DNA of 64,000 bases from Nitrospirota bacterium. GTDB lineage: Bacteria; Nitrospirota; Nitrospiria; Nitrospirales; Nitrospiraceae. The DNA is taken from positions 124,001 through 188,000 of the forward strand of contig JACRLR010000040.1 of NCBI GenBank assembly GCA_016219645.1, given 5' to 3'. Below the pieces are notes generated by a model, which made no database searches, was not told the DNA's origin, and saw only the letters and a list, made by a program, of their open reading frames with translations. Both the position numbers and the translations under genes were made by a program. Below, piece after piece: positions 19,943 through 24,410 of the stretch. The first letter of the stretch is position 1. Each line of letters begins with the position of its first letter.

Positions 19943-20102
19943 ACCCGAGCATGCGGAGTTCAGCGGGCACTGACAGAATTGTCCGTCACAGCCGACGATC
20001 AAACCACGTAGCAGAGTCTGGCCCGCTTGCGTAGGCCTCTCTTGTCTTCCACGGTGCGCTTATCTAGAATGTGCCGTCTTGCAGGACTTAGGGGAGGAGT
20101 CG

Positions 20103-20372
20103 GTGAAGGGTCTACGGTTCGAACGTATCGGAAAAAACCGCTACTACAATGTGGTCTTCCACATGGGGAACAGCTACGTGCCAGTGAGTGATGAGACCCT
20201 GGAAGAACTCAAAGCCCAAAGTCTACTCCCAGTCGAACGGTTTCTCGACTTCTTAATCGACCGCGTCGGCTACTCCTCCTACCTCAAAGAGCAGATCCGT
20301 GCAGAACTCAAAGCTTCCGGCGATCCGGTGACGCAGATCACGGTGCTACAAGGCGCCATCCGCGAACTCTAA
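20103..20372 (+). CDS. Small hypothetical protein
   Basis: An 89-residue protein from a GTG start with GGGGAGGAG upstream; an in-frame TTG at 20079 has no such site. The N-terminal half is probably a small beta-sheet (GLRFERIGKNRYYNVVFHMGN) and the rest is helical (FLDFLIDRVGYSSYLKEQIRAEL). It has no recognised domain. It ends just before repeat copy 4. Confidence 0.6.
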   Translation: MKGLRFERIGKNRYYNVVFHMGNSYVPVSDETLEELKAQSLLPVERFLDFLIDRVGYSSYLKEQIRAELKASGDPVTQITVLQGAIREL

Positions 20373-20373
20373 G

Positions 20374-20540
20374 CGGCTGCTGAAAATTCCGACATTCTCA
20401 CCCACCCAACCCCGGCGCGCCAAGACGCGCTCTTTCCCAAGCTTCGTTCTCAGTCTCGTGCCTCCCTGCGACGTACCGCAAGGGTACGCCTCAGTCGTCC
20501 TGATCCCTGCGGCCTTGCTGGCGGAAATTTTGAGCATCCG
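20374..20540 (+). repeat. Dispersed inverted-repeat element, copy 4 (with insert)
   Basis: It runs from GGCTGCTGAAAATTCC to GGAAATTTTGAGCATCC. The central stem is GTACC/GGTAC (CGACGTACCGCAAGGGTACG) and the TGCGGCCTTGCTGG core is present. A nested hairpin insert lies at 20394-20438 near the left end. Confidence 0.82.
20394..20438 (+). terminator. Nested hairpin element, terminator-like
   Basis: A CTCACCCACCCAACCCC leader, stem GCGCG/CGCGC around CCAAGA (20415-20430), then TCTTTCCC. It has the same layout as the element at 17165-17207 but a different stem sequence. Confidence 0.5.
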
Positions 20541-20872
20541 ATAAAGCCCCTAAAGCCCCTAAAAAGACGACCCCGTTAAGGACTGGTTGATTGGCGTGAT
20601 CGTTGACAAGGGAACGTCGATGTCATTCGTCCACAAAATCTGCAAGGACTCCAGCCTCCGAACTCTCGAAGTCCGAACCTACCAAGACTACCCGTCTTGT
20701 ATCCCTAAATCAGATACCTGATAAGTCGCTGATATCCCCTTCCTTCAAATTTGACCTTGAGACTTTGGTGCGGGCCTTCTAAAATGACTGTTGTCTCAGC
20801 CGTATCACATTTCTTGCGTTTCTATTGTGTCGTGTTTCTCCAATCAAATATCTCGCGGGATACTGTGACCTG
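20541..20872. other. Intergenic spacer before the sce7726 gene
   Basis: A short direct repeat (TAAAGCCCC twice) directly follows repeat copy 4. No gene of convincing length or start is visible. Base composition becomes more AT-rich toward the sce7726-type gene. Confidence 0.4.
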
Positions 20873-21460
20873 ATGAGCAACAATCTCGTTCTTGGCGACT
20901 CTGAAATCCGTTCGGTTCTTCGATCCAGCCTTTCAAAAAAACACGCCAATACATCTCGGACAGTCTTCATCGAAGAACTTGGGCTCTGCCGTGGGCAGGT
21001 AAGAGTCGACCTTTCGGTCGTCAACGGCCTGCTGCATGGATATGAAATCAAGTCTGATCGGGATAGTTTTCGTCGGTTACGCGGCCAGGTGGAACTCTAT
21101 GGGAAGGTGTTAGATCGAGCAACACTAGTGGTGGGTGAGCGCCATTTGGATGAAGCACTCGATAACGTGCCTGAATGGTGGGGAATCTTACTTGCTCATC
21201 GATCGGCCAAGGGGCTGCAGCTCAAAACCATGCGTTCACCACGCAGTAATCCCAAGAAAGATCCTCGCGCCTTGGTTGAGCTATTGTGGCTCGATGATGC
21301 TCTAGCATTGCTGGAGAAACGTGATACCGCACGAGGTTTTCGGGGAAAAGCTCGTTGGATTGTTTGGGATCGAGTCTGCGAAATTTGCAGTCTCAACGAA
21401 ATCGCAAGAGCTGTGAGAATACAACTCAAGGCCAGGGCAAAGAAGCGAGTGCCTGTGTAA
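20873..21460 (+). CDS. sce7726-family PD-(D/E)xK nuclease-like protein
   Basis: A 195-residue protein that I recognise as sce7726 family. After an N-terminal helical region it shows VRVDLSVVNGLLHGYEIKSDRD, a classic D-x(n)-E-x-K restriction-fold motif, followed by QVELYGKVLDRATLVVGERH, typical of the core strand and helix. Nuclease activity is inferred. Its 3' end overlaps that of the convergent Beta-family gene by 35 bases. sce7726 proteins often neighbour Beta-like (sce7725) proteins, as here. Composition is more AT-rich than the flanking housekeeping genes. Confidence 0.8.
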   Translation: MSNNLVLGDSEIRSVLRSSLSKKHANTSRTVFIEELGLCRGQVRVDLSVVNGLLHGYEIKSDRDSFRRLRGQVELYGKVLDRATLVVGERHLDEALDNVPEWWGILLAHRSAKGLQLKTMRSPRSNPKKDPRALVELLWLDDALALLEKRDTARGFRGKARWIVWDRVCEICSLNEIARAVRIQLKARAKKRVPV

Positions 21461-22487
21461 CCACTGAAAGATGATGGGTAGTCCCCAGTTGGCGCCATAC
21501 CCCAGCTGATCCCAAACTCGGAGCTCCATCTGCCGCCGCCTTCATCGCATGACAACCGTTGCAGTGATCTGATCCGCAAAAACTTGACCGGAAATTCCCA
21601 TAAACAAGTTCATGAGCCAGAGCAGGAAACTGCTCGCCCGCGCGAATAGCTTTAGTACTCTCGCCCTTTATCAACAACCACTCATTCTCCAAGGTGTACC
21701 GAATAGCGGCAGACACCGGCATTATCCGAGGGTCAAATCCCTCAACACCTGCCGGATGTTGAATCACGCAGTCACTAAAAGTCGGAAGGCGAGGAATATT
21801 ATTTTTCTCATCGTAAAGATGCCGCTTCCATGCCAGCCAATCACCTCGCTCAGCAAGAGCATGTGAATTCCTGTCGACTCCTCTCATGCTCTTAGGGAAA
21901 GCGCAGGCCGAAATTGTGAACGTGTGCCATCGACTATGATCAGGAACTTCGGCCATGAAGGCGCCAGTCAAGGCTTCGATCCCTTCAACAATGAAGTCCT
22001 CTACTGCGCCCAGATCAATAATGAGATCTAACTGTTCTGGCGTAAGATTGTGTTCGGTCAAGAACACATTTACTCGTGTGGAGAGATCTCCTTGCTCAAA
22101 CTCCGTTCGAGTTAATCGGAGTGCGAGCCCATATTCTCTGTGAGCAAGAGCGGGACCCACATCTGCCGTACGGGATATTCCTGTGACAGGAGTAAATACG
22201 ATACCGGCGTCTGATGCCCGCTGAAAAACATCGGCCGCACCTGCCTGCCCTTCAACGGCTATCTCACGCGTGTCAAGAAAGCACCGCGAGTATGGGCGAA
22301 TGGTTTCTGCAAGATCGGTGAACGCCGTATCAAGATGGCCGCTGCGAGTTTTGGGAGGTTTTCTCTCAACAATCTCTAGAAGAGGGGTCATTCGTGACTG
22401 GAGAATTGGGGAAATACGCTGAAGAGCTCTTTTCTCTCCTCCCTTCACTTTGAGCACCGGCACGTAATGATCTGGCCCAAATGTCAT
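21426..22487 (-). CDS. Beta family protein (T4 beta-like)
   Basis: A 353-residue protein of the Beta_protein family. It shows the N-terminal YVPVLKVKGGEKRAL, the SPILQSRMTPLLEIVE strand, and the C-terminal GVWRQLGTTHHLSVV signature. The fold looks like an alpha/beta barrel; the biochemical activity is not known. It is the third gene of a minus-strand operon: metallopeptidase, PIN-like protein, then this gene 8 bases after the PIN stop. A Cys/His cluster (CGSDHCNGCH) lies near the C-terminus and could bind metal. Confidence 0.8.
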   Translation of the reverse strand: MTFGPDHYVPVLKVKGGEKRALQRISPILQSRMTPLLEIVERKPPKTRSGHLDTAFTDLAETIRPYSRCFLDTREIAVEGQAGAADVFQRASDAGIVFTPVTGISRTADVGPALAHREYGLALRLTRTEFEQGDLSTRVNVFLTEHNLTPEQLDLIIDLGAVEDFIVEGIEALTGAFMAEVPDHSRWHTFTISACAFPKSMRGVDRNSHALAERGDWLAWKRHLYDEKNNIPRLPTFSDCVIQHPAGVEGFDPRIMPVSAAIRYTLENEWLLIKGESTKAIRAGEQFPALAHELVYGNFRSSFCGSDHCNGCHAMKAAADGAPSLGSAGVWRQLGTTHHLSVVTQALASLPWP

Positions 22488-22495
22488 GTCTACCC

Positions 22496-23095
22496 TTACC
22501 CTCTTGGATCCCAGAGTTTGAGCGGTGCCAGTTCCATTTTAAGTGCCCGATAGTATGACATCAGTGCGGTTGAAGGATCTGGGTTCCCACTGGAGAAACA
22601 GACTTCAACCATCCGATCTACTGCGGCAAGCGGAGCCACCCGCAGGCGCATCTCCTCTTGTCCCAATCTATCGCAAAGGGCCAGCAAGACGGCCTCCAGT
22701 ATGACTACACGCCCATCGAGTACAGTGATAAAATCATCAATGTTCTTGAGTGCTATGAGGGCTCGCTTGTCGCCAGACAAAAACGGCTGCCCTAGTTCTG
22801 CAGCTACGGCAAAGATCTGGGCTTCCCCCGGGTCAATAGCTTCAATCCCTGTCAGCTTCTCAAGCCAGGTGACACTGGGATCAGACATGACGGGTATTAC
22901 ATCGGCGACAGGGATTAATGCGTCACAGGCAGGTCCTCCGAACAGATTTCGAAGGCGGCCTTTCTTCAACATGAATGGGAGGGCGTATAGCCTTCCGCAC
23001 TCCTGCAACTGCCCGCCGAAGATCTGTGCTGCGTCCTGAAGTAGGCTAGCGATTCCAAGCTTGCAGAAAGCATCTGTATCAAACAGTAGCTTCAT
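22496..23095 (-). CDS. PIN-like ribonuclease domain protein
   Basis: 199 residues. The N-terminus MKLLFDTDAFCKLG places an Asp pair where PIN nucleases hold their first metal ligand. GEAQIFAVAAELG contributes the conserved Glu and FLSGDKRALIAL the C-terminal Asp, the usual acidic triad. RNase activity is inferred. Its 5' end overlaps the metallopeptidase gene by 17 bases, indicating translational coupling, and the Beta gene follows 8 bases downstream. A start 6 codons earlier is possible. Confidence 0.72.
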   Translation of the reverse strand: MKLLFDTDAFCKLGIASLLQDAAQIFGGQLQECGRLYALPFMLKKGRLRNLFGGPACDALIPVADVIPVMSDPSVTWLEKLTGIEAIDPGEAQIFAVAAELGQPFLSGDKRALIALKNIDDFITVLDGRVVILEAVLLALCDRLGQEEMRLRVAPLAAVDRMVEVCFSSGNPDPSTALMSYYRALKMELAPLKLWDPRG

Positions 23096-24095
23096 GACGC
23101 TCTGGCTCGCCAAAAACGCAGCGGAGCAGTGCGCGGTCAGTCTCGGTTGCAGCGTTTACATCAACATACTCATCAAATAATTGTCTCAGCTGTCTGCGTG
23201 CTCCGGCATTTCGGTAAAGGGCCCTTATGGCTCGTGTAGCCTTCTGATAGCTGTCTGGGCTGTCTATCCGCCGAGCCCAAGAAAAAAGTATCGTGCTCGC
23301 ATTGGCGCCTGTCTGGCGTTCAAGCTCGGCAGCACGACGAGCGAGATCTTTGAAACTACCACTATCTAGGGGGTGAACATTGTCGCTACCAATAAGAACA
23401 CGATTCGCATACTGATCTGCCTTAAGCTCCATCTGAGAATTGTCCGAAGTTTCCTCATCTTCATCCACAACAGGCTGATCTGGAGTGCAATCACCTGTAG
23501 CCACATGCCCAGTCTCATGCGAAACGACAAAGGCTAGTCGCCCCGGCTCGTCATGCCTGTGGCCAAGCAATATGACTGGCCGGCCTTCGACAATCCCTGC
23601 TAATCCTTGGAAACTAGGGACTGGGAGCACATCAAGGGGGATTACAGGAATCCCTCGTATCCAGAGATCCTGAGTGACGTCCTTCAAAGTTATCGAAGGA
23701 CCGGTGTGCTGGATCAAGTTCCGCCAAGCCAGACCGTCAGCAGGTGGGATGGTTACATTCGGGACGGTCTCCCGTAGACTCCGAACTACAGCAGCGGCTA
23801 TACGCATACCCGAATGAATCGCGGGTCCAAGCCTGTCACGATCTATATCCTTAACACGTCTCAGCTGCGCTCCTGGATACGCAGGCGCTGCCAACCTCAT
23901 GCTAGGATCTTTAACCTCGGCTAGAGACTGGCCAAGGAATCGTGCAACCCGGATCTCAATGTCTTGGAGGAGCCTAGGGTCTTCTCGACAATCGTCGTCC
24001 CACCAATCCGGCAAGATTGCTGATCGAAGAAACTCATTCGTGAAACCGGCTTTCGACAACCGGCTTGTTAGGCTCTTGAAAGTGTGCCTCGCCAA
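23079..24095 (-). CDS. ImmA/IrrE-family metallopeptidase
   Basis: A 338-residue protein. The zinc protease motif HETGH is in LAFVVSHETGHVATGD (about residue 190), and a downstream E-L-K-A-D-Q-Y-A-N supplies the third ligand, as in ImmA/IrrE. The N-terminal 110 residues (LPDWWDDDCREDPRLLQDIEIRVARFLG) match the helical region often found ahead of this domain. Family members cleave repressors in response to DNA damage or phage signals. Here it leads an operon with PIN-like and Beta-family genes, so it may control or activate them. Confidence 0.82.
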   Translation of the reverse strand: MARHTFKSLTSRLSKAGFTNEFLRSAILPDWWDDDCREDPRLLQDIEIRVARFLGQSLAEVKDPSMRLAAPAYPGAQLRRVKDIDRDRLGPAIHSGMRIAAAVVRSLRETVPNVTIPPADGLAWRNLIQHTGPSITLKDVTQDLWIRGIPVIPLDVLPVPSFQGLAGIVEGRPVILLGHRHDEPGRLAFVVSHETGHVATGDCTPDQPVVDEDEETSDNSQMELKADQYANRVLIGSDNVHPLDSGSFKDLARRAAELERQTGANASTILFSWARRIDSPDSYQKATRAIRALYRNAGARRQLRQLFDEYVDVNAATETDRALLRCVFGEPERHEATV

Positions 24096-24293
24096 AGGAT
24101 TGCTCCGTTTGTATTAGATCCAACCATCCTGTGACCCACACGGAAAATCTTAGGCGCGGCATTTTAGCACCCTATATCTTCGAACACCATGTATGGGCGG
24201 GTAAGCAGCGCTACCGCCTAACCAGTTCCAAATCCCTCCTGCTGAAAGATCCTTCCAAGCTGGCTCCTCTTCATCCTCCTCCACACATCAAGA

Positions 24294-24410
24294 GGGCCCG
24301 CCATCTCTTCGTTCGACCGCGCGCATTGAGCGAGCACCGCCCATGATGTAGAAATCTGATTGTTTCGTGTGCGCGCTCAGCGAGCGAGGAACGAGGAGAT
24401 GGCGGACCCT
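24294..24410. repeat. Large inverted repeat between operons
   Basis: GGGCCCGCCATCTCTTCGTTC at the left matches, with two changes, the reverse complement of GAACGAGGAGATGGCGGACCC at the right. Inner arms with a GAGCGAGCAC and GTGCGCGCTCAGC character also partly pair. It separates the metallopeptidase operon from the TPR gene and touches the TPR stop codon. Confidence 0.65.

Follow-up and report, generated by a model that had tools for sequence, protein, structure and literature searches.

What kind of system is encoded by the four closely packed genes at positions 20873-24095 of a 64,000-nucleotide stretch of a Nitrospirota bacterium genome (GCA_016219645.1, contig JACRLR010000040.1, positions 124,001 to 188,000; hereafter the window)? 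The initial annotation, made from the sequence alone, had described a compact nuclease/protease module resembling an undescribed defence or toxin system. Our analysis suggests that these four genes form an abortive-infection system that resembles toxin-antitoxin loci and belongs to the wider gop-beta-cII / PD-lambda-2 group; its effector would be a PIN RNase, and we give this reading a probability of about 0.6. The conserved core is most likely Beta plus a convergent sce7726 gene, and the toxin cassette an ImmA-type peptidase plus the PIN RNase. The features of the locus are as follows.

20873-21460, plus strand: sce7726-family (P4 cII-type) PD-(D/E)xK nuclease, 195 amino acids (NF033832, PADLOC cll; D46/E58/K60)
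21426-22487, minus strand: Beta (PF14350; P4 beta / PD-lambda-2 C family), 353 amino acids, predicted to be TIM-barrel-like
22496-23095, minus strand: PIN-domain RNase-like protein, 199 amino acids (AlphaFold model with PIN/VapC matches; D6/D8/E91/D109)
23079-24095, minus strand: ImmA/IrrE (M78)-type metallopeptidase, 338 amino acids, TTG start, first gene of the operon (HETGH and E223)
23079-23095, minus strand: ImmA/PIN gene overlap, 17 bp, read from the sequence
21426-21460, no strand assigned: tail-to-tail (antisense) overlap of the sce7726 and Beta coding ends, 35 bp, read from the sequence
20386-24361, no strand assigned: variable slot holding the module, flanked by a conserved open reading frame (ORF) of 97 amino acids and a TPR gene

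All four genes were found where the initial annotation had placed them, with the D-x-E-x-K, HETGH and PIN acidic motifs that it had noted. The spacing it gave was likewise correct (ImmA and PIN overlap by 17 bases, and 8 bases separate PIN from Beta), and the motif residues were kept in all relatives examined. Consensus promoters and terminators at the locus were below chance expectation.

We assigned the two core proteins by profile searches. The sce7726 protein (P0001) matched NCBIfam sce7726_fam (NF033832, E 1.2e-46) and PADLOC 'cll' (E 3.4e-27), and its D46, E58 and K60 were kept in 91/91 relatives. The Beta protein (P0002) matched Pfam Beta_protein (PF14350, E 1.4e-53) and PADLOC PD-Lambda-2_C (E 3.9e-28). 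It had been labelled T4-Beta, which needs correction: the phage whose beta protein belongs to this family is the satellite P4, not T4. The predicted structure of Beta (pLDDT 94.9) was TIM-barrel-like; because Z scores of ~12 are common to many barrels, we claim the fold class alone. Assignment as a specific enzyme was rejected, as the resemblance was that of TIM barrels in general, with tied rows for aldolases and tRNA-guanine transglycosylase, and we make no catalytic claim.

The PIN protein (P0003) had no match in Pfam, NCBIfam or PADLOC. Comparison of 29 family members with Pfam gave just stray single-member matches of low score, and a BFVD search returned weak matches only. Its AlphaFold model (mean pLDDT 96) nevertheless has a predicted PIN/VapC fold. 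The best structural match was PAE2754 (Z 9.6, root-mean-square deviation 3.2, 125 aligned residues), and VapC toxins followed at Z 8 to 9. D6, D8, E91 and D109 were kept in 32/32 relatives. Judged by model and alignment, P0003 thus combines the PIN fold and the conserved acidic residues expected of a VapC-type PIN RNase, and the earlier motif-based call is backed by the predicted fold.

The ImmA protein (P0004) matched Peptidase_M78 barely at the cut-off (22.2 vs 22 bits). The same model, PF06114, was matched in 24/26 members of its family, and H193, E194, H197 and E223 were kept in 32/32 relatives. Over its catalytic part, P0004 also matched component B of PD-lambda-2 in PADLOC (E 2e-6). A contig search with the P0004 sequence alone and a viral search with the PIN alignment each returned no match.

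To place the locus among its relatives, a profile of close sce7726 proteins was run against 84,980 species genomes (one per species), which yielded 111 sce7726 relatives, and the best 80 loci were kept. Twelve of the 14 sce7726 loci nearest to the window carried ImmA>PIN>Beta><sce7726 in identical order and on identical strands; the other two end at contig ends. According to the records, the hosts belong to at least five phyla (Nitrospirota, Acidobacteriota, Myxococcota, Schekmanbacteria and Pseudomonadota). Within Nitrospirota, sce7726 relatives were up to 93% identical, including some from Nitrospira metagenome-assembled genomes (MAGs). In quick single-gene trees, in which several stand-alone ImmA and PIN rows were long-branched, the Beta-linked PIN proteins formed one clade (SH-aLRT 99), as did the Beta-linked ImmA proteins with one insertion sequence-truncated copy (SH-aLRT 99) and the matching sce7726 proteins with the two contig-truncated loci (SH-aLRT 98). 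Since the order was the same in 12/12 assessable loci and the proteins form clades, we rejected chance adjacency. The co-occurrence of the four families, on which the initial annotation had staked its proposal, was thus borne out in fixed order and far beyond chance. The contig that carries one Beta/sce7726 pair (L064) is assigned to a MAG of the archaeon Methanosuratincola, and the sce7726 of that pair branched as sister to the PIN class (support 85).

The locus combines two known units, an ImmA-PIN cassette and a Beta/sce7726 core, and each was also found without the other. ImmA-PIN occurred without Beta/sce7726 in 5/5 loci examined in a plasmid collection; one of these lay in a P2-like prophage of Klebsiella, flanked by replication endonuclease and portal genes. 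The same held for each of the 14 viral contigs whose ImmA match was good. Conversely, Beta/sce7726 occurred without ImmA-PIN in the majority of the 80 census loci, and many Beta/sce7726 loci had no recognised toxin gene. In 15 of 20 records from a Beta-based plasmid search, an sce7726 gene was annotated at the position of the match. Other genes stood upstream of Beta elsewhere: a HigB (PF09907, ~2e-24) or RelE-like gene, each with a peptidase, DUF6932 with an Xre-peptidase, an FRG-domain gene, or P4 Gop. In L016, L024 and L119 it was DUF6932, not HigB, that lay upstream of Xre-peptidase/Beta/sce7726, possibly another toxin class, and in an Edaphobacter locus (L076, 7614-8444) the FRG-domain gene was immediately upstream of Beta/sce7726. 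The distribution is that of a mobile, accessory locus. A survey of 396 genomes from the phylum found PIN in this genome only and Beta in four.

The nearest described systems share parts of this arrangement. In P4, gop-beta-cII confers protection from lambda and P1, and in the absence of beta its gop component is toxic (PMC9122126, Rousset et al. 2022). The genes of satellite P4 are arranged as gop>beta><cII, where cII encodes a member of the sce7726 family that shares the D-E-K residues. The window locus follows the same plan, in which a gene of toxin type is followed by Beta and Beta by a convergent gene of the sce7726 family. The differences lie upstream of Beta and at the gene ends: instead of a single small membrane-type Gop (133 amino acids, with hydrophobic segments), the window has ImmA and PIN, with the PIN gene directly upstream of Beta in the place of gop, and its Beta and sce7726 genes overlap, whereas P4 beta and cII lie 27 bp apart with an annotated terminator.

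PD-lambda-2 is an abortive-infection defence in which B is toxic alone, A rescues from this toxicity and protection depends on C (PMC9519451, Vassallo et al. 2022). The window Beta corresponds to component C, and the window peptidase, whose catalytic part is related to component B, is paired with an RNase-type partner in a similarly compact operon. Unlike PD-lambda-2, the locus has a PIN-fold protein and no HigB gene as component A, and its peptidase gene comes first, where PD-lambda-2 begins with the toxin-like gene. The published three-gene description does not include sce7726 (PMC9519451), whereas the related loci in our analysis have it.

COG2856 peptidase genes adjoining PIN genes were listed in 2009 and proposed as three-component toxin-antitoxin systems (PMC2701414, Makarova et al.). 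As in those pairs, which are described as common on phages and plasmids, the window has an M78/COG2856-type peptidase gene beside a PIN gene. The peptidases in that account are often fused to an Xre helix-turn-helix (HTH) domain, and the passages found do not mention Beta or sce7726. VapBC differs in turn, because no small VapB-type antitoxin gene lies by the window PIN gene; the partner is the 338-amino-acid M78-type peptidase with its 17-bp overlap.

As the cassette differs and Beta/sce7726 is the same, the parts that define PD-lambda-2 and gop-beta-cII do not place the locus in either system, although it shares their core. The word 'undescribed' in the initial annotation accordingly holds for one part of its claim. 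The core is known from gop-beta-cII, Beta also as PD-lambda-2 C, and the peptidase-PIN pairing from COG2856-PIN; for the four-gene combination, no paper was found in the literature searched, which had few subscription papers or preprints, and PADLOC 2.0.0 covers the class in single parts only. The module is not categorically new; it resembles the known phage-defence systems in a form that is not listed, with the toxin part exchanged.

By analogy with P4 gop-beta-cII, PD-lambda-2 and COG2856-PIN, the window locus is most likely their PIN-class relative. On this basis we infer an anti-phage function for the PIN version, its toxin and antitoxin roles, its trigger and its RNA target. While the cell is healthy, PIN would be restrained, most likely through binding to the peptidase, to Beta or to both. 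The Beta/sce7726 pair may sense infection, perhaps via sce7726 action on phage DNA. This would disturb the PIN complex, with the peptidase acting on its partner, and PIN would cleave RNA, halting growth before phage production. The initial annotation had proposed that it is the protease that would sense infection or damage and release nuclease activity.

A toxin or defence role, as the initial annotation had supposed, fits the locus, because the co-occurrence goes beyond chance, the locus is accessory, and the gene adjacent to sce7726 is of restriction type in 3/12 homologous loci: a Hma/BREX/DISARM-like helicase with a methylase in L055 and L058, and a type ISP enzyme in L061. Clear defence neighbours were confined to these three loci; a partial scan of the other neighbours, made without a background rate, gave incomplete matches of low score in L050 and L059 and nothing more. 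This small share weighs against an abortive-infection system with PIN as effector, and so do two further points. PD-lambda-2 component B is an Xre HTH fused to a peptidase, and no HTH was recognised in ImmA in a family search of 26 members, the N-terminus being without a structural model. In addition, the toxic component of PD-lambda-2 is the peptidase, not the RNase-like one (PMC9519451). Because of that result, roles may be reversed at the window locus, the ImmA-type peptidase being the toxic executor and PIN its neutralising partner, with Beta/sce7726 still needed for the phage response. Such an arrangement would match the reported PD-lambda-2 components B and A, and ImmA shares homology, over its catalytic part, with the Xre-peptidases of such systems (hhalign probability 98.8%). 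We nevertheless consider it unlikely, given that a mere antitoxin would not need the full acidic set present in all PIN proteins, and that the peptidase gene is first in the window rather than preceded by a toxin-like gene.

The core itself could also provide the main output in a restriction-like manner, with sce7726 attacking phage DNA directly, Beta guiding it, and ImmA-PIN serving as an addiction cassette that retains the locus. The invariant D-E-K residues of sce7726, the many Beta/sce7726 loci without a recognised toxin gene and the existence of stand-alone ImmA-PIN are all consistent with this. The toxicity of P4 gop without beta (PMC9122126) and the recurrence of toxin-type genes upstream of Beta point instead to growth arrest as the output, which makes direct restriction quite improbable. 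Occurrence of each unit alone would equally suit two unrelated mobile modules lying side by side, maintained as selfish toxin-antitoxin genes with no joint defence. Against this stand the tight order of the four genes across phyla and the separate clades of Beta-linked PIN and ImmA proteins, and we regard it as very improbable. Evidence for the abortive-infection reading with a PIN effector comes from the fixed order and the single clades across phyla, the match of the core to P4 beta and cII and of Beta to PD-lambda-2 C, the recurrence of ImmA-PIN as a prophage and plasmid cassette, the VapC-like fold of PIN, the toxin-type genes found upstream of Beta elsewhere, the variable slot in relatives and the restriction-type neighbours.

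More tentatively, Beta/sce7726 could be a general infection-sensing core for unrelated toxin cassettes (Gop, HigB-peptidase, DUF6932-peptidase, FRG and ImmA-PIN), with the window locus as a separate PIN class of four genes, so far unlisted, and the tail-to-tail overlap as part of the control; we see this as possible rather than probable. A shared core with exchangeable cassettes would link P4 gop-beta-cII and PD-lambda-2, both of which were found experimentally and are mechanistically open, and the role of Beta and cII becomes testable through cassette swaps. It would also add a conserved four-gene class beyond the single-part entries of PADLOC 2.0.0.

The 35-bp sce7726/Beta overlap was absent from the initial annotation. 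Across loci in the range L016-L132, a Beta/sce7726 3' overlap was present in 85/86 (median 50 bp) and in every cassette class, in a sample where most loci were found via sce7726 and those without it are under-sampled. The sole exception was P4, with its gap between beta and cII. Overlap length was 2 modulo 3 in 75/86 loci, a pattern expected if the overlap is inherited, and PIN-class overlaps were narrow in range (35-44 bp). Conservation of a tail-to-tail gene overlap across phyla is unusual in itself.

We also compared the genomic site with that of relatives. In the closest relative (G216), the neighbouring genes are the same, the sigma-54 regulator being 87% and the TPR protein 93% identical. 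G216 and G249 are relatives of the same genus. In G216, the slot is short and holds a different PIN-like ORF (L163, 2497-3042; a sequence reading with no Pfam match), and in G249 a RiboL-PSP-HEPN-like gene (L164, 2326-3312; Pfam E 0.0064, below cut-off). Because these relatives hold other RNase-like genes there, this site appears to be a small hotspot of toxin or defence genes of the RNase type. The 97-amino-acid ORF beside it (20079-20372) is conserved and sits in DNA whose identity is ~89% to G216 and 82% to G249.

Flanking repeats had been noted on both sides of the module. The strongest inverted repeat (24292-24314/24389-24411) has a counterpart in G216, with a different stem sequence in the same place beside the TPR gene. 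G216 is without the module, so the repeats do not mark it, and we rejected them as element ends. In another genome (G277), an ImmA homologue (76% identity) was truncated by transposase genes (L011, 6339-7148) on a 273-kb contig that also carries ParA/ParB-like genes.
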